From a virus: DNA of 24,888 bases. The DNA lies in the IMG/VR virus record IMGVR_UViG_3300017730_000077, positions 1-24,888 of that record. One strand, 5' to 3'. Under the pieces are notes generated by a model. The model did not search any database. It saw only the letters and a program-made list of their open reading frames with translations, and was not told the origin of the DNA. Shown here piece by piece: positions 6,887 to 24,705 of this stretch. A program made the translations under genes and the position numbers. Position 1 is the first letter of the stretch. The number at the start of each line of letters is the position of its first letter.

Positions 6887-8790
6887 TGGCACAATTAAAT
6901 TTAACAGAGTTAGATTTTGAAGATATAAAAGTTAATTTAAAATCTTTTCTAAAATCACAGAGTGAATTTTCAGATTATAATTTTGAGGGTTCGGGCTTAG
7001 CAACACTTATAGATTTGTTAGCATACAACACACATTACAATGGTATGTTAGCACACATGATTTCAAATGAAAATTTTATTGATACTGCGGTAAAAAGAGA
7101 ATCTGTAGTATCTATTGCAAAGGCATTAGGATATACACCGAGATCATATCTAGGTGCAAGTGCTACAGTAACAATTACAGTTACCCCTCCTACATCTTTT
7201 ACAGATACGACTTTAGAACTAACTAGAGATACTGCATTTACATCTGCCAATGGTGGCGGATCATATCAATTTTATCCTTTAGAAAGTGTAACAGCTTCTG
7301 CTCAAGTAATAGATGGCGTAACGGTATTTGTATTTTCAAATTTAATACTAAAAGAAGGTGTAAGAACATCAAATCAATTTACAGTAGAGACAGCAAATCC
7401 TCAAGGCCCTTATATTATTCCTAATAAAAGTGTAGACGCATCGACAATACGAGCAAGAGTACAAACATCTTTAGGAGACACTTCACTAACTACTTGGAAC
7501 AAATCTACAACAATACTAGATGTTAAAAAAGATTCTAGAGTATTTTGGATAGAAGAAGGAATAGATGGTTTAACACAAGTAAGATTTGGAGACGGCGTAA
7601 TAGGACAAAAACTTGATGTAGATAATATCGTTTCATTAGATTATATTGCAAGTTCCGGCACTACGCCTAATGGTGCAAGCACATTTAATGTAGCAGGTAT
7701 TGTAGCACAATCAGGCGAGACTGTTTCTGTTACAACATCAAGTCCAGCATCGGGCGGTAACATACAAGAAACAGTAGATGAGATTAGATTTAACGCACCA
7801 AGATTAAATGCTACAAGAGATAGAGCAGTAACAGAATCAGATTACAAATCATTAATATTACAAAGTAACTCTAACATACAATCAGTGGCAGTTTGGGGAG
7901 GAGAGAAAAACGATCCCCCTATATATGGTAAGGTATTTATTTCATTAAATCCTGTTGCAGGACAAATTATAACAGATCAAGATAAAGACAATATTAAGAA
8001 TAGTATTATTGATCCTAAAACTCCTGTAGCTATTATACCTGAATTTGTAGATCCAGAGTACACATACTTACAACTTGATGTGACATCTACATACAATCCT
8101 AAAATTACATCTTTGACAAAAGGTGAAATAGAAACAGCAATTAAATTACAAATAGAAAATTATTTTACTAACTATCTAAACAAATTAAATAAAAGTTTTT
8201 ATTATAGTAGATTACACGATCTAATTAATTCACAAACACCCGCTATTATATCTACTAATATACAAATAGGATTACAAAAAAGAGTTAAGGTTGTATTAGA
8301 TAGTGACTTTAACTATACGGTTAAATTTAATCAAAAACTTAATCCAAGAGAATTAACAAGTACATTTTTTAACCTGGAAACATCAGGCACAACAAGCAAA
8401 GTAACATTAGTTGATGTACCAGCAGCCACAGTAGTTGCACCTTTATATAGTGGAACCGGAGTAGTTAATGCAGTATCATTAGACGGTTCACTTGTAAAAG
8501 CAGTAGGAACAATAAACTATGATACAGGAACTGTAGAGCTTCCTGGAATGAAAATTAAAAGTTTATTAGGAACAGAAACAAGTTTAAGAATTAATGTACG
8601 CCCTCATGATAGTATTAAAGATATTACTACACAGGCATTGGTTAGAACATCAGATACTAGTACAGCAGCAGTTATTGCTAAACCGTCTCGTAATACAGTT
8701 TTAATTCAAGATGATAGTGTTTTAAATTCTACAATTAATACAACATCAGGTATAAAAATAACAGCTAATAAAGAAGTCGAAGAAATTTAA
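6886..8790 (+). CDS. 6: Baseplate wedge protein gp6
   Basis: The protein has 634 residues, close to T4 gp6 (660). The N-terminal block [20 protein letters not shown] (41-60), then [20 protein letters not shown] (62-81) and [15 protein letters not shown], is the hallmark of the gp6/gpJ baseplate family. Later come VRFGDGVIG with the '[11 protein letters not shown]' turn (near 232-262), [20 protein letters not shown] (about 297-316) with [11 protein letters not shown], and the domain [20 protein letters not shown] (about 405-424) followed by [15 protein letters not shown] (about 475-490), as in other family members. Two gp6 chains and one gp7 form each wedge and dimerise into the ring. TAATG overlaps couple it to gp25 before and the gp7-like gene after. 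Confidence 0.92.
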
Positions 8791-11660
8791 TGGCAGATTA
8801 TATTCCATCATTTTATAGATATGTATCATCTATAACAGTTACAGCCGGAGGGTCGGGGTATAATAATGCTCCTACAGTTACTATTGCTGGTGGTGATGGA
8901 ACAGGTGCTACAGCTACTGCAACAATTTTTAGTGGTGCGATAACAGGGTTTGTTATTACAAACAAAGGTACGGGTTATACATCAGCACCAGTAGTTACAA
9001 TAACACCTCATGCTAGCGATACATCAGCAACAGGTGCAGCAGGTACAGCTGTATTAGACGCAGCTCAAAGCGCCTCTAGTTTAGAAACAAAAAACAATAG
9101 TTTTTTAATTAAGGAACAAGTACCTCAATATATTAGAACAGAGTATCCTACTTTTGTAACATTTATTGAAAAATATTATGCCTTTATGGATAGTAATTAT
9201 TCAAATACAACAAATTATGTCTCTGATATAGATTACGCTCAAGAAGAATTTTTAGATAAATGGCGAGGAGCTTTAGTATCAGATTTTCCTAAACTATTAA
9301 GCGTAGACAAATCATTCTTTTATAAAAGAGCAAAGGATTTTTATGAGTCAAAAGGTAGTAAACGATCTATAGAGGCTTGGTTTAGAGTATTATTTAATGA
9401 GAATGTAGAAGTATTATATCCTTATCAATATGTACTTAAACCCTCAGACGGTATCTATAATGTAGAAACTGCCGTTAAAATTCAAGAAGCAGAACATGGT
9501 GGTGGTAGTTTAGAACCCCTCTCATTAGAAGGTAAAAAGATTGATCTTAGATATAAAGAAACTACTGGTACAGTTACAATTACAAAAACTGTTAATGCTA
9601 GTGTAAGAAGAGTAGAGAAGAATACATATCAAACAAATGGATTGACCTTACAAAGATTCGAGTTAATCTTAGCATTCGACGATGCTAATGTAACAACTAT
9701 TGAAGGCCCTGGAGCAGGTGCAGATTTAACAGCTAGTGTTTCCGGAGGAGGAGTTTCAGGTATTGCAGTTACTGCCTCAGGTTCGGGCTACAACGCAGCG
9801 CCTCCTATACAAATTTACCCAGCAACAGGCGATACAATAACAACACAGGCAACAGCACACGCACTAGTAACTGATGGAAAAATTACAAGTGTTGTTGTAG
9901 ACAATGCAGGGGTAGGTTATACAAGTGCTCCTACAATAGAATTAGATTTAGAAACTATAAAATCATATGTTGTCGATGATGGTGCACCTAACACCGATGA
10001 TGATATATACGGATATGTTGTTAGAGTATTAACAGGCGTATCATTTAAATCTTATACTGGCTCAGAAGCTAACGCAGGATTTAAAGTAGGACAAATATAT
10101 TCTATAAACGAAACAGGCGATGACGGAAAAGCATACGCCATCTCAGGATATTTTGCTGAAGATTATACATTTATAGGAGGCTCTAATGATGCCTATATAA
10201 GAATAACAGCTATAACAACAGCAGGTTTACCTTCAGCATTTACCGTTGTAAACCCAGGATCAACATTCCTTAAAGATACAGCGGACATACAAATTACTTC
10301 TCCCTCAGGAGAGACATGTAACATTACATTAACAACTGGATATCTATTTTCATACGAAGGTAAATATAAAAACGACCAAGGTAAATTATCCGATGTCAAT
10401 GTACTGGCAGACAACAACAGATACCAACCATATTCATATGTAATTAAATCGGGTATTGCACAAACAACCTGGGATAGATCTATAAGAGATACAGTTCATC
10501 CTTCAGGTATGGAAGTGTTTGGAGATTTAATTGTTAAAAGTGAAATAGACTTTAATGTACAATTTAGTGTTGAATCTACAGGATATAGATTCTTCATATT
10601 TGATGCCGACGATCTAGTAACGACAGTTGAAACTGTTGGCGTATTAGTAAGTAAAGCAATAACAGACGCACCTACAGTAGCAGAATCTCATGGAATACAT
10701 TTTGTTCCTGCAGTTAAGACTGAAAGTGTACTTGGAACAGATCAAGGCATAAACCCTTATTGTGTAAGTGGTTATTGGAATGATGACTCTGACGGAGTAT
10801 CAGCCGATAACTATAACATAGGAGACGATCAATTTATAGTGGATGTTTCCAAAGCGTTTGTGGAGACTCTAACTGTTTCTGATAGTGTTGCAGAAGATGC
10901 AATAGATATTAGTTTCATTAGAACATTTACTGATTCTACAATATCAGTAACTGATGCCCCAGCAAAACACTTTACTAAAGCATTCCTAGAGGCATTCAAC
11001 AATACTTATTGGACACCAGCATCTGGCTCTTCAGCATATACAAATGATGAAGCAGATAACGGGGACTTCCAATATTATGTTGCTACAAGTAATGGTTCCG
11101 TAACAGCTACAGAATCTATTAATGTAGAAAGAATATTAAGTATTACAGATCCTAACGACACAGTATCAGTAACTGAGGTTGCTCAAATAAATACAACTTT
11201 CTCGAGAGCCTTAAGTGATACTGGTACAGCACAAGATTCAAGTTATGTAATGAATCTAAGTGTTTCTTATACTGATACAACATCTAACACAGACACAAAT
11301 GTATTATCAGTATCCAAAGTAATAGCTAATGCAGTTTCAAATATTACAGAAACAGTAGTATTAGCATACTTCAATAATGTAACAGAGTCCGTAGCAGTAA
11401 GTGATTCTGATACATTACAATTAAATAAACCAGTTTCTGAATCTTTAACAGGATCGGAAGCGATAAACAGTATAAATACAAGTAAAGGAATAACAGATAA
11501 CACCTCAGGTGTTGCAGAATCCTTAGCTAATGCACTTAACAAACCAGCAGTAGCTGATAGTGCAGGAGCTACAGACGTAGGTATAGGATCAGTACAAGAT
11601 TATGCAGATCCAACATATCTTTCAGAGGATTATGTAGGAACCGGTTGGAACTTTACATAA
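8790..11660 (+). CDS. 7: Baseplate wedge protein gp7-like, with repeat insertions
   Basis: A 956-residue protein in the gp7 slot between gp6 and gp8 (T4 gp7: 1032). The core at about 105-225 contains [60 protein letters not shown] and LKPSDGIY, which I recognise from marine T4-like wedge proteins and which resembles the P2 gpI-type module. Two pairs of glycine-rich YTSAP-type repeats lie at about 13-80 and 315-400, the first pair in front of the core. From about 610 to 936 is a chain of imperfect Ser/Thr/Asp-rich repeats of about 30 residues ([37 protein letters not shown]). No enzyme motif is seen. gp7 initiates wedge assembly in T4. The gp7 name follows gene order; the decoration by repeats is unlike T4. 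Confidence 0.75.
8827..9050 (+). repeat. YTSAP-type repeat pair in the N-terminus of the gp7-like protein
   Basis: Two copies of a beta-rich module of about 35 residues with the pattern I-T-V-T-x-x-G-x-G-Y-x-x-A-P-x-V-T-I followed by a Gly/Thr/Ala loop ([12 protein letters not shown] and [12 protein letters not shown]). Related pairs occur again in this gene near 9735-9950, in gp8 and in the giant tail protein. Confidence 0.85.
9735..9950 (+). repeat. Second YTSAP-type repeat pair in the gp7-like protein
   Basis: Two more copies ([18 protein letters not shown] and [18 protein letters not shown]) of the module. A weaker fifth copy may follow near 10215-10330 ([18 protein letters not shown]). 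Confidence 0.75.
10620..11600 (+). repeat. Ser/Asp-rich tandem repeats at the C-terminus of the gp7-like protein
   Basis: About eight to ten imperfect units of roughly 25-45 residues. Each pairs a V-S-D-S or V-T-x-S/D strand ([60 protein letters not shown]) with a following K-x-[FI] or N-K-P segment. The divergence is high, so unit borders are approximate. Confidence 0.6.
11471..11478 (+). promoter_or_regulatory. Possible internal late promoter (TATAAATA) inside the gp7-like gene
   Basis: Exact octamer about 205 bases before the start of the 147-residue virion protein gene. In AT-rich coding DNA a chance match is quite possible, so this is only a candidate for extra transcription of the downstream genes. 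Confidence 0.3.
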
Positions 11661-12136: not shown

Positions 12137-13723
12137 ATGGCTCTAGTACTTCGCAGACTAGGTAGAGTAGAATTAGCAAGGACATTTCATAGAGATGTTC
12201 GTAATAACAATGACTATTTTCACTTTGCCGTAGGTAGAACAGAGGCTTGGTCTGATGACACAAGCCCTGAACTTCCTGTCGATAATGATTCTTATGTTTC
12301 AGCGTTTAGACGGAGCATGATGTTTACCCAAAGAATTGATTCTGCAGATGTTTGTTTACTAGCTAAACGAACAAATTGGACACAAGGCACGGTGTATGAT
12401 GAGTATGACGATAATATATCTTCATCACAACAAACATACTCCGGAGCCTCCAATATTGCAGAAGGTATATTTTTTATAATGACTGATGAATTTAAAGTAT
12501 ATAAATGTATCAGTAATAATAATAACGGACCAAGTACTGTTAAACCATCAAGTACAGGAACATCTGTATTTGAACTATCCGATAATTACAATTGGAAATT
12601 TATGTTCCAAATCTCAGCATCAGATCAAAATAAATTTTTAGATGCGGATTTTATTCCTGTAAGAAAATTAACAGGAAATCCTACACATGATGTTACAGGA
12701 GAAGTAGATAGTATTACTATAACTGCAGGAGGCACAGGTTATACTAGTGTTCCTACAGTAGTAATTCAAGGTGATGGAGATGGTTTGGCAGCAGGCACAG
12801 CCACTATATCAGGCGGTGCAGTAACAGGAGTTACAATATCAGCATCAGGTTCTGGTTATAGTTTTGCTTTTGTATCATTCACAGGAGGTGGAGGTTCAGG
12901 TGCAGCAGGTACAGTTAATTTAGGAGACGCAGATTCTCTTCCAACATTACAGAGTGCCGTAGAAGGTGCAGCTGTTAGCGGAACTTTAGATAGAGTTATT
13001 GTAACAGCAGCAGGACAAGACTATGCAGAAAGTGATGTACAATGTACAGTAGAAGGCGACGGCTCAGGAGCAGAAGCAAGCGCTTATGTTAATTCAGCAA
13101 CAGGAGCTATTACAAAAATAAGAGTAACGAATCCAGGTTCAGGATATTCTTATGCAGACATAGTTATTACAAACACAGCAGCTCCAGGAACAGGAGCATC
13201 AGCTAGAGCTATTGTATCACCTCAAGGTGGACATGGTTCAAATGCACCCAGAGAATTATTTGCTCATAATGTGGGTGTAACAGTATCATTCTCAGACAAT
13301 GATAATAGAGATTTAATATTAGGCAATGACTTTAGACAAATTGCTTTAATAAAAAATGTTAAGACACCTGGAGGTGTAACATATACAACAAACACAGCTA
13401 CAACCTGTCATATAATTAATGTAGCATCAGTATCAGATTATGCAATAGATGATATTATTACATCAAACGATGGAGGTTCATTTACTGTTATACAAATAGA
13501 TTCAACAAACAAAAATATATATTTAACATCTACAAATCCGGCAATAACAGTTAATTCAACATTAACAAATACCACTCAAAGTAAGAGTAGTTTGAGTATA
13601 AATAGTTTAACAGATCCAGAAGTTGATAACGCTACAGGAGAGGTTATTTACTTAGATAATAGATCGCCAATTATTAGATCGGCGGACCAAGTAGAACAAA
13701 TAAAGGCATTGATTAGGTTTTAA
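12137..13723 (+). CDS. 8: Baseplate wedge protein gp8 with a repeat-domain insertion
   Basis: A 528-residue gp8 homologue, about 190 longer than T4 gp8 (334). The N-terminal part has DYFHFAVGRTEAWSDDTSPE (26-45; T4 'NTIFITFGRSEPWSSNENE'), DSYVSAFRRSMMFTQRIDSA, KVYKCISNNNNGPST (120-134) and DNYNWKFMFQIS. The C-terminus GEVIYLDNRSPIIRSADQVE (501-520) then QIKALIRF matches T4 'GEMIYMENRPPIIMAMDQTEEINILFTF' closely. Between about 190 and 360 lie four YTSxP-type repeats absent from T4 gp8, which explain the extra length. gp8 dimers brace gp7 and gp10 in the T4 wedge. AAGGGA ahead of the ATG (near 12126) is the ribosome site. Confidence 0.88.
   Translation: MALVLRRLGRVELARTFHRDVRNNNDYFHFAVGRTEAWSDDTSPELPVDNDSYVSAFRRSMMFTQRIDSADVCLLAKRTNWTQGTVYDEYDDNISSSQQTYSGASNIAEGIFFIMTDEFKVYKCISNNNNGPSTVKPSSTGTSVFELSDNYNWKFMFQISASDQNKFLDADFIPVRKLTGNPTHDVTGEVDSITITAGGTGYTSVPTVVIQGDGDGLAAGTATISGGAVTGVTISASGSGYSFAFVSFTGGGGSGAAGTVNLGDADSLPTLQSAVEGAAVSGTLDRVIVTAAGQDYAESDVQCTVEGDGSGAEASAYVNSATGAITKIRVTNPGSGYSYADIVITNTAAPGTGASARAIVSPQGGHGSNAPRELFAHNVGVTVSFSDNDNRDLILGNDFRQIALIKNVKTPGGVTYTTNTATTCHIINVASVSDYAIDDIITSNDGGSFTVIQIDSTNKNIYLTSTNPAITVNSTLTNTTQSKSSLSINSLTDPEVDNATGEVIYLDNRSPIIRSADQVEQIKALIRF
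12705..13220 (+). repeat. Four YTSxP-type repeats inserted in gp8
   Basis: Copies read [59 protein letters not shown] and ITKIRVTNPGSGYSYADIVI, each followed by a Gly/Ala-rich loop. They lie between two blocks that align with T4 gp8, so they are an insertion into the wedge fold. Confidence 0.8.
13597..13604 (+). promoter_or_regulatory. Possible late promoter for the giant tail gene
   Basis: Exact TATAAATA with the same AG flank as the intergenic ones, 122 bases before the 13727 start, inside the gp8 3' end. The giant gene has only a weak ribosome site of its own. A chance match cannot be excluded. Confidence 0.4.
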
Positions 13724-13726
13724 CAA

Positions 13727-16700
13727 ATGGCATTAAATTTAAATACATCACCATACTACGACGATTTTAGCGACGACAAAAGATTTCATCGCGTTTTGTT
13801 TAAGCCAGGCGTAGCGGTACAGGCTCGAGAGCTAACTCAATTACAAACAATTTTACAAGACCAATTAGATAAAGGATTTGGTTTTGTAATACAAGAAGGC
13901 GCAGTTATAACAGGTTGCGCAGAATCTACAGAGTCTGTTAATTGGATTAAAGTTAACGACACAGACGCAGCAGCAAATGCCATAGACAATACAACTCTTG
14001 CTAACTTTGTAGGAAAAGAAATTTCCGGAGGAACTACCGCCCTACAAGCAAAAATTATTGCAGTAGAAACAGGAGCAGTTGGTGACGCTCCTAATTTAAA
14101 AACACTTTATCTTAAATATCTAAATTCAAGCACAAGTTATACTAACTTCACATCAGGTGAAGAATTAACAGTTTATACACCAAACACAGGCCCAGGAAAT
14201 TCAGCAACAGATTTAAACGGTTTTACTTTCGTTGTAAATAATCTAACAGGTAATAATTTTACAGCAAAATATTACGGGGCAACAAATAGAGTTACATTAC
14301 AACCTGGTATTATATATGCTCGAGGTTCCTTTATTAAAACAGATACAATATCTTGTTTAGTAGATAAGTATAATGAACTACTACCTAAAAATGTAGGCTT
14401 TGTTGTCGAAGAATCCATTGCAGGCGCAGCCACAGATTCATCTTTATTAGATCCTGCACAAGGCTCATTTAACTATAATGCACCTGGTTCAGACAGACTT
14501 AAATTTACAGTAACATTAAAAGCTTTTGATAAAAGCGCAACAAAACCAGAAAATTTTTATACATACGCACACTTTCAAGACGGAGCTATACAACAAATAA
14601 GTCTTAAAGACAGTCCATTACATGGCGTAGGAAATATTTTAGCAAATAGAACTTATGATGAATCTGGTAATTATCTTGTTAAAGGTAATACGGTTTCATT
14701 AAGAGAACATTTAGACGAAAACAACAACGGTGGAATATACTCAGCAAGCAACGGTGGATCTAAAGACGCACTAATGATACAAGTTGATCCTGGTGTTGCT
14801 TATGTAGGAGGACACAAGAGAGAACTATTAAGTTCTAAGCGTATTCCTTTTATGAAGCCCACAATGAATGTTACAAAAGAATCTCAACCTATATCAACAT
14901 CATATGGTAACTATGTTTTAATAGATAATATTACAGGAACATTTGATGTAGATGGTGGTGAGAAAATAGATTTATTTAATAATACAGCAGGAGCAGGCGG
15001 TGCGGGTGCTAAAATTGGAGAAGCCAAAATAAGACAATTGGTTTACGAAAGCGGAACTATAGGATCAACAGCAGCACAATACAGATTATATCTATACGAT
15101 ATCCAAATGCTTAGTGGAGACTTTACAGCTGTTAAGAGTGTAGATTTTAATAACGGCGAAACTTGGGGAGGTGTAGGTAATACAGTTCAAGAAAGTTCTA
15201 AAGCTGTATTGAAAGAAAGTAAGGTAAACAAACTAGTTTATAGATTGCCATTTAAAAATATTAAAACATTAAAAGCAGAAACAGGCAACACATACGATTA
15301 CACATTCCAATATCAGAAAGAATTTAATATTGAATTGGCTGCAGGCACAGGTAAAGCATCTATTACACTTTCTGGAAATGAAACATTTCCTTATTCAGGT
15401 ACATTAACTGATACACAAAAACAAGATTTTATAGCTATAGCAAAAGTAGGATTTACACAAAACTCTGCTACAATAGCAGCAGGTCAATATCTAGATTTAA
15501 CATCTAATAATTCTAACGCAACAGTTACAGTTACAGGCTCACAGGCTATAGAAATAGATCTGGGTGGGGCGGTTACAGGAACAGGAACAATAAGAGTATA
15601 TGCAAATGTACAAGTAGCAGATGCAAATCCAATTGCTAAAACTCTCAACGCTTCACAGTATGTTAAAATAGATACAGGTACACATGTTGCAGGAACAACA
15701 GGTGAATATAATTTAGGCTTAGTAGATTTATATAAAATAGAATCAATTACAGCAGGCACAAATTCAGACTATACAACAGGCCAAGTAGATGTAACAGCAG
15801 ACTTTAGATCTATTACAGGACAGCAAGATAGTTTTTATGGACAAGCAAAAATATTTCAAAGAGGCACAAGTACTTTAAATCTTACAACAAATAGATATAT
15901 TGTTGTTAAATTATCTGTATTTTCACAAACAATTTCAGGCCCTTCATTTGCTTGTTTAGATAGTTATCCAGTAGATGATGCTACGGCAACATTGCCAGCA
16001 GATAAAATTAGAACAGAAAATGTTCCTTTATATAATTCTCAAAAATATGGTGATTTTGATTTAAGAGACAGTATAGATTTCCGTCCATATGTAGCTAATA
16101 CAGCAACACTTACAGGAACATTAGGTAGTGCTACAGTCAACCCTACAAACGATAAATTAATTAACAAACCAGGTCAGGGTTTAAGTAATCCTGTACCCAC
16201 AAAGACATTTAGCACAGATTTAAAATATTATCAAGGCAAAAAACTTAGATTAGTATTAGACTTTGATGGCGAATATAGAATAGTAGAAGGTTCATATTCA
16301 GACAACCCTACAATGCCAGCAGAGCCAGCCAACTCAATGACAATGGCATTGCTTGATCTACCACCATATCCAAGTTTATCTCCTCAATCAGGTAAACTAG
16401 CAGGAAGACTAGACTACACAGCTACAATTAAAAATGTATCTCAGAAACGATTTACAATGAAAGAGATTGGTGGTTTAGAACAAAGAATTAAAAATTTAGA
16501 ATACTATGCCTCACTTAATCTATTAGAAACATTTGCTAAAGATCAAACGATTGTTAATAGCTCAGGTATTGATAGATTTAAAAATGGTATATTAGTAGAT
16601 CCTTTTACAGGACATAATGTAGGCTCAGTATTAGATCCTAATTATAAAATTTCAATTGATCCTAAATTGAAACATGCTAGGCCGTTCTTTGTACTTGAAA

Positions 16701-19700
16701 ATATTAGAACTCAATTGTTCCATAATATTTCATCTACAGCAACATACACAGGAACTGCATTAAGACAAACGGGTGCTAATATAACAGCGCCGTATAATAC
16801 AAAAATTTTAACAGAACAACAACAAGCATCTCAGACTGAGAACTTAGTTAAGGAACTTACATTCTTTTGGAATGGAGACATGGTCCTTACGCCAGATGTA
16901 GATAACTTTGTAGACACCTCAGTTCAGCCAGCAGTTAATAGAAACTTTGACGGCAACTACGACGCATGGGAAAACATGGCAAATGCTTGGGGCACACAAT
17001 GGGGCTCATGGGAAGACTCAGGTGCAGCAAATGTAACTACTTCTACAGAATCTATAAATGGTTTTGGAACAAATGGAAACGGTGGCGCACTTGCTACATT
17101 TACAACTACTACAACAGAACAAACACAAGTTAGACAGGGTATTGGTCTAGATGTTTCAGCAGGAACAGAATCACAATCATTAGGAGAGAAAGTAGTAGAC
17201 ATGGCTTTTGCTCCATTTATGAGAAGTCAATTAATCTTTGTTGAGGCAAATAGATTAAAACCTCTTACAAGAGTTTATCCATTCTTTGATGGAGAAGATG
17301 TATCAGCAAATTGTACAATGGACGATGGAAGTACAACTACATTAACAACAAATGCTAATGGAACAATAATAGTAAGATTCACACTTCCTACAGGAAGATT
17401 TAAAACAGGACAAAGAGTATTTAAACTTATAGATGATGCTAATAATCAGGAAAAAACAGCTAAGACATCTGCTAATGCGATATTTGAATCTTCAGGTTTC
17501 ATACAACAAAAACAAGATACTATATTAGGATTTAAAACAGCGAATGTAGCTTCCTCGGCTTTCTCAGATAGTCAAGTAGTAACAGATACAAGTATGTCCT
17601 ACAGTATTGGAACTGGAGCGCCTTTACCACCTCCACCGGCACCAGTGATTATTAATAATCCCCCGGTAGAAATTATAACAATACAACCTGTTCCTGTACC
17701 AGTACCTCAAATTGTAATACAACCAATACCAGATCCAGGTTTACCATCACCGTGGCCTCCTACTTCGTCTTTAACAACGCCAGCACCACAACCACCAGTT
17801 CCTGTACCACCAGTACCACCAACACCAACAGTTACAGTAACACTACCGTGGACACCACCAGTAACACCTGATATACAGCCTCCACCTCCTTTGCCGGTTC
17901 CGGAACCACCTGTGGTAATACAAGATCCTCCACCAGATGTAGTTCCTTGGAATCCTGGATTCCCTATTAGAGGACAGGGAGCGGGCGGATGGCCAAATAT
18001 TATTATTGATATGGGAGATGGTATTGGTAACTTAGTACTACCAGACATTATAATACCAGCAAGTCCACCACCTCCACCACCACTTCCAGTGGTTACTGCT
18101 TGGGAAGCACCTGAACTAGACTTTGGCGAGAACTTTGGTTGGAGTCCATTCCGAGGAGGAAGATCCGGGCGGGGACGAGGTAGAGATCCTTTAGCACAAA
18201 CATTTACAGTTAGCGGAATGCCAGGAGGCATCTTTATTACAGATATCGATGTTTACTTTAAAACTAAACCAGAAACTGGAGCTAACGGTGTAATAATGGA
18301 AATTAGAGAAGTTATTAATGGTGTTCCAGGTCCTCGTATCATACCTAATGGTACTAAGAAATTACATAGAAATCGTATTAACACTTCATCAGAATCTGGA
18401 GGAGTAACATCATTTGTTCCAACTAGCTTTGTATTTGATCAATTAGTATATTTACAAAACGATACAGAATATTGTTTTGTTCCTAAACCAGAGAATGATG
18501 ATGAAGGATATGAATTATACATTTCAGAATTGGGTGAAAATCAAATAGGAACAACAGAAAGAATTACTAAACAACCTCATGGAGGCATAATGTTTAGTTC
18601 TGCTAATGATAGAACATGGTCGCCTAATCAGTCAAAGGATATAATGTTTAGACTTAACAGAGCAAACTTTAAGTTAGGAACTACAACAGGTAAATTAGCA
18701 AACGAAAATTTAGATTGGATTAACTTTAGTTCTACAAGCACAGGCGAAGATATTAATTGGACACCTGGTAACTTTATACACGGATTCCATACAACATCAG
18801 TAACAGCAGGAGCAGGATATACAAGTGCTCCAACAGTAGTAGTAACGAACACAGGAACAAATGGAACAGGCTTTGCTGCTACAGCTACAGTCAGTGGTGG
18901 AGCAGTAACAGGTATTACAGTTACAAATCCAGGAACAGGATACACATCGGCACCAACACTTGTATTAACAGGTGGAGGCTATACAACGCAAGGTGCAGTA
19001 ACAATCCAAATTAAAAACGGATTAATAGAAAATTACAATTCTTTAGATAAACAATTAACAGTAAATAGACAAGGGGACTTAGCTCCTTTCTTAGTAGGAG
19101 ATGTTATTGGTAATGCAGACGGTTATGCTACTATAGGCTCATTTACAGATAAAGTAATTAATGAAATAGCATTAAACGGAGCTACTATATTACCAACACC
19201 TGCAGTAGCACTATTAGCTAAAATAGCAATTAATGAAACAAGTGCAGCCTCAGCAGTAGGCGCAGACGGCGTATCAGAAACATACACAGATATAGATTTT
19301 AATGTTACAACAAAATTAGAAAAAGAACATAGAATTTATAGTAGATCTAATGAATTAAATTCAATAGCAGCAGGTGGTTACGCAAATAATAAAACAGCTT
19401 TAGTTGAATTACAATTTACTACACAGCAAGAAAATGTTAGCCCAATTATATCAATGGATCAAATGGATTTATTGTGTATTGCTAATAGTGTAAACAATGA
19501 TTCAACTAATGAAGACACAAGATATAAAGGAAACGCTTCTTCTCGGTATATTACAAGAAGGGTAGTGTTGGAAGACGGCCAGGATGCAGAAGATCTAGAA
19601 GTATATCTAGATGCCGCTATTCCAACAGAAGGAAGTTTAAAAGTCTATGGTAAAATGCTAAATTCCGCAGACGAGTCAGACTTCCAGGATGATTTAGGAT

Positions 19701-20173
19701 GGGTAGAATTATCATCAGTAACAAACCCGTTCGAATCAACAGAAGATTTTGCAGAATATAAATTTAAATTACCAGCTAAAGGTTCTAACGCAGCAGGACT
19801 TAATGGTACAGTATTTGAATATGATGTAAAATCAGTAGCAAGCATCTCAGCTGTAGCAGGCACAGGTTATACTAGTGTTCCTACAGTAACAATTACAGGC
19901 GGTGGAGGTTATGGAGCTACAGCAGTAGCGTCGATAAATGGTAGTAACCAAATTTCCGCAATAACGGTTACCAATCCAGGTAGAGATTATACTTCTACAC
20001 CAACAGTTACAGTAACAGGAGGCGGTGGCTCGGGTGGCGACGGTACTGCTACTATAGGTACTGTTACACATTCAGGCTTTAAGACCTTTGCGGTTAAGGT
20101 TGTGCCTTTAAGTTCAACAACATCTAAAGTTCCTTTCTTTAAGGACTTAAGAGCAATAGCATTACAGGCATAA
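13727..20173 (+). CDS. Giant DUF4815-like tail/baseplate structural protein
   Basis: At 2148 residues this is the largest gene here. The N-terminus ([40 protein letters not shown] at about 26-45; [11 protein letters not shown]) is the start typical of the DUF4815 family of marine T4-like structural proteins. Residues to about 1290 are beta-rich with [14 protein letters not shown] and a helical segment [19 protein letters not shown]. Residues about 1298-1412 and 1444-1458 are proline-rich, followed by an Arg-Gly run ([16 protein letters not shown], about 1475-1490) and a conserved C-terminal module ([37 protein letters not shown]). Two YTSAP pairs sit at about 1688-1760 and 2037-2116. Its slot after gp8 is that of T4 gp9-gp10, so it may replace the pin or fibre-anchoring proteins. 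That is inferred; the name gp10 is not given because homology is not visible. Confidence 0.8.
17618..17965 (+). repeat. Proline-rich stalk region of the giant protein
   Basis: About 115 residues rich in Pro and Val ([50 protein letters not shown]) with no matching repeat register at the DNA level. A second short run ([10 protein letters not shown]) lies near 18060-18100. It probably forms an extended polyproline II linker between the N-terminal part and the C-terminal module. Confidence 0.85.
18790..19000 (+). repeat. YTSAP-type repeat pair, giant protein, first location
   Basis: Two copies ([18 protein letters not shown] and [20 protein letters not shown]) in the C-terminal part of the giant protein, more alike to each other than those in gp8. 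Confidence 0.82.
19836..20070 (+). repeat. YTSxP-type repeat pair, giant protein, C-terminal location
   Basis: Two copies ([20 protein letters not shown] and [20 protein letters not shown]) followed by Gly-rich loops ([20 protein letters not shown]). They sit inside the last conserved domain, just before the C-terminal strand. Confidence 0.82.
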
Positions 20174-20174
20174 G

Positions 20175-20405
20175 ATGAATACTTTACCTACTGGACTTAT
20201 AAATATAGAGGGAGAACGAGATTTAGTTAGAGATCGTAATTCCAAAGCCTTACTCAATACAAACAATGAAAGTCTTAAAGCATATAAAATTAAAAGAAAT
20301 GCTAATAATAAGATCCTAGAGTATGAAAATGATATAAATACTTTAAAGACAGAAATTGTTGAGATAAGAAAAACATTAGAACTTTTAGTCAACAAAATTA
20401 CATAG
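20175..20405 (+). CDS. Small coiled-coil protein of the tail module
   Basis: A 76-residue protein, highly charged. The first 40 residues include NIEGERDLVRDRNSKALLNT, and residues about 42-74 form a predicted heptad coiled coil (ILEYENDINTLKTEIVEIRK). It starts two bases after the giant gene's stop, with only a weak CAGG ribosome site, so coupled translation is likely. Small coiled-coil proteins at this spot are common in marine T4-like phages; they could be trimerisation adaptors or fibre chaperones, similar in kind to T4 gp57A, but no sequence link to gp57A is visible. The coding call is supported by strict packing between neighbours and normal codon use. Confidence 0.7.
   Translation: MNTLPTGLINIEGERDLVRDRNSKALLNTNNESLKAYKIKRNANNKILEYENDINTLKTEIVEIRKTLELLVNKIT
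20198..20205 (+). promoter_or_regulatory. Weak candidate late promoter inside the coiled-coil gene
   Basis: Exact TATAAATA 216 bases before the next gene start. It lacks the AG flank of the intergenic copies and may be a chance match in AT-rich coding sequence. Confidence 0.2.
20333..20340 (+). promoter_or_regulatory. Possible late promoter for the fibre genes
   Basis: Exact TATAAATA followed by CT, as in the gp25 promoter, 74 bases before the 20414 start and inside the 3' part of the coiled-coil gene. Predicted +1 near 20346 would give a leader containing the AGGAAG ribosome site near 20406. Confidence 0.45.
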
Positions 20406-20955: not shown

Positions 20956-22242
20956 ATGAGACCACTAAGAATTAAAGCATCAGCATATCCTGTTAGTTCA
21001 GGTAATCTACAAGGATTACAAGAAATGACAGATACTGAAATCGAACAGTATTACAGTGCAATACTTACAAAAGATTTCGCAGACAATCATGATGGAACAA
21101 ATACTGGTGAAATAAACATTGGTGGTTCAGGAACAACTATCGGTACTGCAACAGATACAAAGAGAGATGACGCAGTAGGAACACATCCTACAGACGGAGC
21201 ATCTTCTACAGTTACTACTTACACAGCTAAACAAGTAGAAACCACAGTATCCGAAAGTGTTACAAATAGACCTTTAGGGTATGTATCCTCAGGCACAGTA
21301 GGTATACACGAATTCGATGATACAGAAATAGACACAGATATTTTAGATAAGGTAGCTGATGACTTTGTTGCACAAGGCAACTATACAATAGGTCAATACT
21401 CATTAGCAGCATCAACACCTTCAGGTGGAACATGGACATCTAGATATACATTAACAGATACCCAAGTAGATGGTACCACTGCTAACATGTATATTTGGCA
21501 AAAGACAGCAGCAACAACAGCAGCTGTAACTAATTACAAACCTCTTAAAGTTAAAGATAGTGGAGCCGGTGTACAAGAAATGACTGTTGCAGAGATGGAA
21601 CAGCAAATGCCTAACTTTAGAAACTATATTATTTCTAGTGGTAAAGGTAAATATGTATTACAAGCAACTGCACCAGGGTCAGGTACATGGGTACAACAAG
21701 GAGACGCAGGCGGTTATACAGATACTAAGAAAGATGTAGCATCCGAAAATTACACAGGCGCTTATGCAGGAGCTTATACTGGAGCCTACACAGGCGGTTA
21801 CACAGGAGCTAAAAATTACGGTGGAACATATACAGGAACCTCAGCATACGCAGGCAGTTATACAGGTGCCAAAAGTTATGCAGGAGCTTACACAGGAACA
21901 TCTGGTTATTCAGGCACATACCAAGGAACATACACAGGAAACTACGCAGCAGATTACTCAGGTTACGCAGGAACATCTTACGCAGGAGATTATACAGGTA
22001 ACTATGTAGGATATTATACAGGTGCTAAAAACTACACAGGATATTATACAGGAACCTCAGCATACGCAGGTAGTTATACAGGTGCTAAAAACTATGCAGG
22101 CACATACACAGGAACCTCAGCATACTCAGGTACATATTCAGGTACATACACAGGTTATTATTCTGGTACATACGCAGGCGACACAATTAAATCTTCAAGC
22201 TCAACAGTCAGTACGGTAAAATTGTGGTTAAGAACTGCTTAG
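20956..22242 (+). CDS. Tail fibre with Tyr-Thr-Gly repeat domain
   Basis: A 428-residue fibre. The N-terminus has LQGLQEMTDTEIEQYYSAIL (about 19-38), and a related copy recurs at about 206-220 (GVQEMTVAEMEQQMPNFRN), each near a segment of the form Y-x-L-x-A-x-x-P-x-x-G-T-W, so the N-terminal 260 residues contain an internal duplication. From about 262 to 412 the sequence is a tetrapeptide array, Y-[TA]-G-x, with interspersed GAKNY and GTSAY blocks. These are organised into 20-residue units and a 72-residue higher-order repeat. The protein ends in an ordinary polar tail (TIKSSSSTVSTVKLWLRTA) that could be a capping strand. AGGAAA near 20943 is the ribosome site. It is the last gene of the fibre set and likely touches the host surface, but the receptor is unknown. 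Confidence 0.82.
   Translation: MRPLRIKASAYPVSSGNLQGLQEMTDTEIEQYYSAILTKDFADNHDGTNTGEINIGGSGTTIGTATDTKRDDAVGTHPTDGASSTVTTYTAKQVETTVSESVTNRPLGYVSSGTVGIHEFDDTEIDTDILDKVADDFVAQGNYTIGQYSLAASTPSGGTWTSRYTLTDTQVDGTTANMYIWQKTAATTAAVTNYKPLKVKDSGAGVQEMTVAEMEQQMPNFRNYIISSGKGKYVLQATAPGSGTWVQQGDAGGYTDTKKDVASENYTGAYAGAYTGAYTGGYTGAKNYGGTYTGTSAYAGSYTGAKSYAGAYTGTSGYSGTYQGTYTGNYAADYSGYAGTSYAGDYTGNYVGYYTGAKNYTGYYTGTSAYAGSYTGAKNYAGTYTGTSAYSGTYSGTYTGYYSGTYAGDTIKSSSSTVSTVKLWLRTA
21740..22182 (+). repeat. Tyr-Thr-Gly tetrapeptide array with a 216-base higher-order repeat
   Basis: DNA built from 12-base units such as TACACAGGAGCT, encoding Y-T-G-x. One block starting at 21805 (GAKNYGGTYTGTSAYAGSYT, then GAKSYAGAYTGTSGYSGTYQ) recurs at 22021, exactly 216 bases (72 residues) later. 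The two copies agree at most positions over about 47 residues. Within each block there is also a 20-residue period. Other frames of the array stay open for up to 81 codons as a by-product of the repeat. Confidence 0.92.
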
Positions 22243-22249
22243 TTAGCAG

Positions 22250-22257
22250 TATAAATA
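22250..22257 (+). promoter_or_regulatory. T4-type late promoter for the glycosyltransferase operon
   Basis: Exact TATAAATA in the 36-base gap after the fibre gene. Predicted +1 is near 22263, giving a 16-base leader with GGAG at 22270-22273 before the ATG at 22279. It shares the AG flank with the gp25 promoter. Confidence 0.72.
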
Positions 22258-23521: not shown

Positions 23522-24162
23522 TTTGGACTGATATATCAGATGAAGTTAAAGGCATGTTGGAACCATATTCAGAATGGTTCTTTAGACAAGATCTTACACT
23601 CTTAAATAAATTAGCAAAAGACAATCCTAAGAATACAGATACAATGGAGAACGGATGTTCAATAGAGTATCTAGATAAAGTAGTTAAAGCAGACGGACGC
23701 CATGAAGGGTATCCAGAAATTTCATATAGTTACGATTTAAAAATGGGCAACATAGGAGAGTTCCAAGAAAGATATCAGGAACTATCTACAGAATTATGTA
23801 CATGGTTGGGAGCTCGCAACGAGGCTGTCCATGTATATTATCCTAAGAATGGATTCATGAGTTGGCATAATAATTGGAATGCACATGGATACAACATACT
23901 ATTATCCTATACAGAAAACGGCGGTGGGTTCTTCAAATATAGAGATCCACTAACACATGAAGTCGTTGAAATGTTAGATCCTGGTGGCTGGTCTTGTAAG
24001 GTAGGATACTATGGCAGGGGTAGAGAGCCCGATAAAGTCTACTATCATACTGCTGGAACACACGAACCACGCCTTACATTAGGGTTTGTTATCCCTAATA
24101 TTGACATGTGGCGGTGTATGATTGAAGATATCTCTGGAAAAGATGCTTCACATCTCTCCTAA
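23518..24162 (+). CDS. 2OG-Fe(II) oxygenase-like protein (double-stranded beta-helix)
   Basis: A 214-residue protein with the layout of a small 2-oxoglutarate/iron dioxygenase. After a helical N-terminus come a strand AVHVYYPKNGFMSWHNN (103-119), YNILLSYTENGGGFFKYRD (125-143, the usual G-G-x-F turn), ATG-like surface loops, GWSCKVGYYGRG and VYYHTAGTHEPRLTLGFVIP (174-193). His117 and the H-x-N pair, His177 and Arg185 (eight residues after His177) are in the positions of the metal HxD, second His and 2OG-binding Arg. The Asp of HxD is an Asn here (Asn119), which is unusual and might lower or change activity. Substrate unknown. ATGA overlap with the glycosyltransferase indicates one operon. Confidence 0.6.
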   Translation: MIWTDISDEVKGMLEPYSEWFFRQDLTLLNKLAKDNPKNTDTMENGCSIEYLDKVVKADGRHEGYPEISYSYDLKMGNIGEFQERYQELSTELCTWLGARNEAVHVYYPKNGFMSWHNNWNAHGYNILLSYTENGGGFFKYRDPLTHEVVEMLDPGGWSCKVGYYGRGREPDKVYYHTAGTHEPRLTLGFVIPNIDMWRCMIEDISGKDASHLS

Positions 24163-24273: not shown

Positions 24274-24705
24274 ATGTATTTAAAAGACAGAGTAGTAATA
24301 GCAGGCCAGTATGTAGACAAACAAAGATTTGGAATGGCCAGCATCCATGATGAGAACAAAACTTTTACAGGTGATGTTCTATACAAAAGCCAAATAAGAA
24401 CAGCACCAAGTGGTTATTCTTATGATAATTCCATTGAAACAAAATTCCAAGACACAGCTCAAGTAGATGGGCTTACAGTATGGAAATCAAATGGTGAAGT
24501 TCCATTCGCAGACATGTTATTAGACTTTGTACAAATTGGTGGCATAACTTTAGAACAAGCAGAGTTTTCATTACTCCAAAGACAAAAAGATTCTAGTGCA
24601 AGTCTTGAAACTCTGTACAGAGCAGACGACGGCAATGTTTACTTAGGCGAAGGTGCCCTAGACTATAGAGACGAAAGACTAGCAAAAATAGCGGAGGCAG
24701 CGTAA
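24274..24705 (+). CDS. Unknown 143-residue phage protein, start of a new module
   Basis: No family recognised. The protein is acidic and soluble, with strand-like starts (YLKDRVVIAGQYVDKQRFG), a middle segment ETKFQDTAQVDGLTVWKSNG and a helical C-terminus (EQAEFSLLQRQKDSSASLET; DYRDERLAKIAEAA). No signal peptide, transmembrane helix or zinc motif is visible. It is the first gene after the structural block and is preceded by a sigma70-like promoter, unlike the late genes, so it is probably expressed early or middle. Its stop overlaps the next start (TAATG), suggesting that it works with, or is at least co-regulated with, the WGR-like gene. Confidence 0.7.
   Translation: MYLKDRVVIAGQYVDKQRFGMASIHDENKTFTGDVLYKSQIRTAPSGYSYDNSIETKFQDTAQVDGLTVWKSNGEVPFADMLLDFVQIGGITLEQAEFSLLQRQKDSSASLETLYRADDGNVYLGEGALDYRDERLAKIAEAA

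Follow-up and report, generated by a model that had tools for sequence, protein, structure and literature searches.

A Tyr- and Gly-rich repeat protein linked to glycosyltransferase and oxygenase-fold genes in uncultured marine T4-like phages

Computational analysis of a 24,888-bp virus record, treated here over its whole length and referred to as the window, defines a family of phage repeat proteins, their architecture, their linkage to a set of downstream genes and the folds of the enzymes that these genes encode. The family member in the window carries an array of Y-x-G-x tetrapeptides enclosed by a folded N-terminal domain and a conserved C-terminal strand, and its gene is followed by a cassette for an accessory protein, a glycosyltransferase and a 2OG-Fe(II)-oxygenase-fold protein. 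We regard it as an even prospect that the protein is an adhesin or fibre and that the enzymes of its own cassette hydroxylate and glycosylate its repeat loop. The preliminary description of this DNA, which drew attention to the repeat, overlooked both the insertion of the array into a hairpin and the linkage to the glycosyltransferase and 2OG-oxygenase genes.

Genomic setting of the repeat gene

The window covers baseplate genes of a T4-like phage, including the T4-type baseplate gene gp6 (37.7% to HTVC008M). Judged by the gp23 of a closely related virus, the nearest cultured phages are Methylophilales phage Melnitz (70.5% identical) and Pelagibacter phages HTVC008M and Mosig (66–69%). With T4-type capsid and baseplate genes, the markers of a T4-like marine phage (Kyanoviridae-like), the virus of the window is an uncultured marine T4-like phage. 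The repeat gene adjoins the baseplate genes, in keeping with the location expected of the fibre that the preliminary description had proposed, and the cassette lies just downstream of a VrlC-type gene. In HTVC008M, Mosig and Melnitz, the baseplate genes are arranged much as in the window as far as the VrlC-type gene, whereas no Y-x-G-x array and neither enzyme was found in the parts of their tail-gene regions that were examined; that of Mosig contains a homologue of the accessory protein without the array and the enzymes.

Several other features of the region were recorded. Three baseplate-region proteins (8790-11660, 12137-13723 and 13727-20173) have in common a YTSAPTV/GGGGSGA-type repeat module and matches to PHROGs 701, 708, 460 and 19630. 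A minus-strand gene at 806-1252, divergent from the tail operon, encodes a TnsA-like endonuclease domain (E=3.6e-20) and probably specifies a head-completion nuclease of the T4 type. A small ORF at 20176-20403 (MNTLPTGLINIEGERDLVRD...), located between the VrlC-type gene and a short fibre gene, has a product that, judging from its sequence, looks like a small coiled-coil structural protein.

Repeat array and anchor domain

Residues 266-409 consist of Y-[T/A/S]-G-x tetrapeptides in frame with the 428-aa ORF (Table 1). The tetrapeptide array reported in the preliminary description is real: Tyr residues are spaced by exactly 4 positions 18 times, compared with a maximum of 13 over 2,000 shuffles of the same residues. 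The 72-residue super-repeat likewise held up, being present in two copies with a DNA identity of 0.72 at an offset of 216 bp, against 0.48-0.53 at offsets of 204 and 228. The block at 21805 matches that at 22021 in 96/120 bases and 34/40 residues, the codon differences comprising 10 synonymous and 6 non-synonymous changes. Tandem Repeats Finder reported periods of 12, 30 and 60 bp, that is, units of 4, 10 and 20 residues. AKN and TSA inserts introduce 6-residue steps, so that much of the array can be read as the 10-mer YTG-[AKN or TSA]-Y-x-G-x.

With a period of 4 and even spacing, the array is not a collagen-like repeat (G-x-y, Gly every third residue), as had been stated before, and a known phage fibre repeat was ruled out by the wrong period and the lack of a family match. 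The repeat protein matched no curated fibre family in PHROGs, and no Pfam or PHROG family covered it convincingly; Gly-zipper-type Pfam matches in some family members were judged compositional. An overlapping ORF at 21764-22009 was rejected as a gene because it is a shadow of the repeat. The literature yielded nothing relevant on a Y-T-G-x repeat.

The array stops before the C-terminus of the protein and is enclosed by the folded N-domain and a conserved C-terminal strand. Profile–profile alignment resolved the first ~265 residues into three homologous modules. In the alignment of modules 2 and 3, the C-terminal KLWLRTA pairs with YIWQKTA of module 2, from which it follows that the chain ends with the second strand of the hairpin of module 3. 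The array is hence a giant insertion at the hairpin tip, its two ends held next to each other. That residues 254-274 pair with 398-426 is itself a prediction from secondary structure and profile alignment, and the last strand may pair within its own chain or be contributed to an adjacent subunit of an oligomer. AlphaFold, run with the 58-member alignment, modelled residues 1-265 mostly with high confidence and the last 18 residues with a pLDDT of ~95; for the array (residues 269-401) pLDDT was <50, without a confident fold, so that it may be disordered. Because the chain ends as a strand of module 3, a freely ending shaft was rejected. In L263, a naturally short form, the array is down to 7 motifs and both ends are retained. 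Searches of PDB and BFVD with the anchor domain gave no match at E<=0.001, weaker matches being left unused, and the modelled anchor fold thus appears to be one not seen before in the structure libraries searched.

Table 1. Coordinates of the repeat gene, its modules and the downstream cassette in the window
Feature	Position	Strand	Evidence
Repeat protein gene, 428 aa: anchor domain, Y-x-G-x loop, C-terminal strand	20956..22242	+	ORF; 58-member alignment; AlphaFold
Anchor module 1, residues 1-101	20956..21258	+	hhalign, modules 1/2 E=1.1e-11, modules 1/3 E=4.4e-11; pLDDT mostly high
Anchor module 2, residues 102-190, last strand YIWQKTA	21259..21525	+	hhalign, modules 2/3 E=9.4e-20, probability 99.2
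Module 3 first part, residues 191-265, to first hairpin strand	21526..21750	+	hhalign; strand 254-274 predicted
Y-x-G-x array, residues 266-409	21751..22182	+	two 72-residue copies, inside module 3 hairpin
Module 3 C-terminal strand, residues 403-428, ...STVKLWLRTA	22162..22239	+	strand 398-426 predicted; family-conserved
TATAAATA, T4-type late-promoter-like motif	22250..22257	+	21 bp before accessory gene
Accessory protein, 170 aa	22279..22791	+	at 115/122 repeat-gene ends; no Pfam or PHROG family
Glycosyltransferase, GT-A type (likely), 249 aa	22772..23521	+	invariant DxD; 111/122 ends
2OG-Fe(II)-oxygenase-fold protein, 214 aa	23518..24162	+	HxN...H...R; 104/122 ends

Diversity and distribution of the family

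A DNA scan for the Y-T-G-x period recovered at least 119 stretches, and protein-seeded scans added further ones. The stretch recognised as repeat measures 40 to 1,604 residues in 136 distinct family proteins; the motif spacing is even in 94.5% of cases, and in 87% it is a multiple of four. At the first position of the motif, Tyr accounts for 74% and Phe for 26%; the second is filled mostly by Thr, Ser or Ala (Ala 15%), the third by Gly (75%) and the fourth mostly by Asn, Thr, Ser or Ala. The arrays are rich in Tyr (17%), Thr (16%), Ser (10%) and Asn (6%) and poor in Lys, Pro and Cys; across the 136 proteins, none of the acceptor residues is strictly conserved. The even spacing fits a beta structure that displays Tyr and Gly on the same side. 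A terminus of the form L-[WFY]-x-[RK]-x is found in 93 of the 98 repeat ORFs with a complete 3' end. Two Y-x-G-rich ORFs without the LWVRTA-type C-terminus (L020 and L114) possibly belong to a different family with a similar repeat.

The preliminary description had also suggested that DNA identity between the copies allows copy-number change. Array length is essentially constant within the window's own clade (81-100% identical), where no rapid change at the locus was seen; in sister clades, loops do vary in length. Pairs with N-domains 90-96% identical have loops of 200 versus 156, 180 versus 244 and 104 versus 168 residues. Loop differences between sister-clade pairs with 80-96% identical anchors are mostly multiples of 4, indicating that array length can change while register is kept.

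Phage C48C1 was the only carrier of the family found among 50,697 phage records, and no relative turned up when the window protein was used to scan genomes of bacteria and archaea. A megablast search with the L064 locus as query returned no matches. The C48C1 protein (WJE88074.1; Kyanoviridae, OQ984149), annotated only as a hypothetical protein, has a homologous anchor, a Y-rich array and the same C-terminal strand, and is followed, as in the window, by genes for the accessory protein, glycosyltransferase and oxygenase; it differs in its length of about 3,350 aa and in the many Arg residues that replace Gly within its repeat. Nothing relevant on Phage C48C1 was found in the literature.

The downstream cassette

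The repeat gene is followed, on the same strand and in the same order, by genes for the accessory protein (~150 aa; 170 aa in the window), a GT-A-type glycosyltransferase and a 2OG-oxygenase, close-packed in the window, where the last three genes overlap. Linkage was counted at the 122 distinct repeat-gene ends that are followed by 2.3 kb or more of sequence, the genes being sought within 4 kb. The accessory gene was present at 115 ends, the glycosyltransferase at 111, the oxygenase at 104 and all three at 103; because all loci share descent, these counts are not independent trials. Several exceptions to the full cassette are the first gene of a tandem pair. The outer neighbours are less constant: the short fibre gene upstream was found at 56/115 ends (49%) and the gene beyond the cassette at 19/91 (21%), compared with 85, 81 and 75 of the same 91 ends for the cassette genes. 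The gene beyond the cassette (24274-24705) encodes a 143-aa protein with a weak 6-fold beta flower match (E=0.012).

Searches seeded with the enzymes gave the same picture. A repeat gene lay upstream in 68 of 72 loci found with the glycosyltransferase, the other 4 loci lying on contigs that break off upstream or representing the short form L263, and divergent seeds (the L187 glycosyltransferase and the L039 oxygenase) led to a repeat gene in 16/16 loci. For both enzymes, the sole match among the 50,697 phage records was C48C1, the carrier of the repeat protein. Between loci the enzymes share as little as about 30% identity, with gene order and spacing retained. Two tandem repeat-protein genes before one enzyme cassette were observed in L301-L305 and also in L064, L068 and L071, as if one enzyme set served two fibres.

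The glycosyltransferase is likely of the GT-A class on sequence grounds. D94 and D96 of its DxD motif are invariant in 53 sequences, and the best family members match Pfam GT8 (1.2e-4) and Nucleotid_trans (3.3e-7), the window protein itself falling below the cut-off. The nearest solved sequence to the family profile is glycogenin, which has the DxD in common with the window enzyme, as do other GT8 enzymes; the similarity is weak (PDB profile match, E about 0.04). The AlphaFold model of the oxygenase (pLDDT 93.9) has the double-stranded beta-helix fold, and Foldseek matched it to P. putida P4H (best, 2.4e-5), AlkB and PHD2 (E 2e-5 to 3e-4) with probabilities of 0.98-1.00 and modest TM-scores of 0.3-0.4. 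H117, H177 and R185 are invariant and canonically spaced in the alignment, and the metal-acid position of HxD/E is occupied by an invariant Asn119 (W-H-x-N; 23866-23874). With Asn in place of the metal-binding acid, oxygenase activity is uncertain, and iron binding may be unusual. The accessory protein is possibly an assembly chaperone.

The gap before the cassette contains the AT-rich motif TATAAATA, which we take to be a T4-type late-promoter motif on the basis of the T4 consensus. Of 176 homologous gaps, 37 contain it (2.5 expected), the gap sequences being mutually related; in many of the other gaps the genes abut. Over the whole window the excess of the motif is not significant (9 versus 5.3 expected), and only its position across relatives was therefore used. 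That position would fit expression of the cassette together with virion proteins, not in early host modification.

Proposed function and alternatives

The constant pairing of the repeat gene with the two enzymes suggests that these phages decorate their own fibres. The neighbouring VrlC-type and baseplate genes point to a late virion surface protein, an adhesin or fibre of the baseplate region. Its anchor would hold both ends of the loop side by side, so that the loop projects outwards and returns, and could lengthen in 4-residue steps with the anchor undisturbed; insertion into the module 3 hairpin would account for growth of the repeat from 40 to 1,604 residues in an unbroken protein. The accessory protein or chaperone, the glycosyltransferase and the oxygenase would form a maturation cassette by which, to judge from the conserved linkage, the array is hydroxylated and glycosylated before or during assembly. 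The decorated Tyr-, Thr- and Gly-rich loop might then present a hydrophilic or adhesive surface towards the host, or act as a shield. The abundance of acceptor residues (Tyr, Thr, Ser, Asn) counts in favour of modification of the array; their lack of conservation, with Phe at 26% of first and Ala at 15% of second positions, counts against it. A fuller version is speculative and, in our view, clearly less likely than not: a self-contained hydroxylating and glycosylating system, acting possibly on Tyr through a glycogenin-like enzyme, that creates a bioadhesive or glycan shield on a novel anchor fold and is widespread in uncultured marine T4-like phages.

The main rival is that the two enzymes act on the host surface (e.g., LPS) to block superinfection and merely lie beside fibre genes in a hypervariable host-recognition region. 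Glycosyltransferases encoded between VrlC and gp14, the host recognition cluster of pelagimyophages, have been interpreted as host-surface modifiers (PMC7029224), and the cassette starts just past the VrlC-type gene. The gene content of that region is described as variable (PMC7029224), yet the enzyme pair lies beside one fibre family in nearly all loci, was not found without the repeat gene where sufficient DNA was present and is preceded by the late-type motif, and we consider host-surface modification unlikely. It is rather more doubtful that the substrate of the enzymes is the anchor domain or a different virion protein, with the array as an unmodified flexible spacer: the low pLDDT of the array (<50) and the absence of a strictly conserved acceptor residue are what such a spacer would lead one to expect, but the constant partner of the cassette is the array gene, the upstream short fibre gene being present at only 56/115 ends.

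The preliminary description pictured a shaft or adhesive surface whose copy number would alter host range; as a rival to the decorated loop, this would be an unmodified, beta-structured array. Its rows of Tyr and Gly agree with the even, beta-compatible motif spacing, and loop lengths do differ among close relatives in other clades. Against it, both array ends return to one anchor domain, the array lacks a confident fold, array length is fixed in the window's clade, and the linked enzymes would be left unexplained. We find this model improbable as a whole.

If the decorated-fibre reading is correct, tailed phages build virion surfaces by a collagen logic of their own, in which a repeat protein is joined by a hydroxylase and a glycosyltransferase, and they do so in a group of marine viruses from which hardly any isolate has been annotated. 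A testable role would also fall to those marine-phage glycosyltransferases and 2OG-oxygenases that are now filed as host-surface or metabolic genes.

Comparison with known systems

The closest parallel is found in mimivirus, in which the bifunctional L230 protein, a lysyl hydroxylase and glucosyltransferase, acts on collagen-like viral repeat proteins (PMC9614988). In both systems the virus has genes for a long, repetitive and (in the window, presumably) structural protein as well as for a glycosyltransferase and a 2OG hydroxylase, the latter two being predictions in the window. They differ in that the repeat of the window is Y-x-G-x with almost no Lys or Pro, the enzymes are encoded by separate genes and the virus is a tailed phage; moreover, modification has been demonstrated in mimivirus, whereas in the window it is suggested by conserved gene linkage. 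Having an unrelated repeat and separate enzymes, the window system lies outside the mimivirus L230 family, which serves solely as its closest working model.
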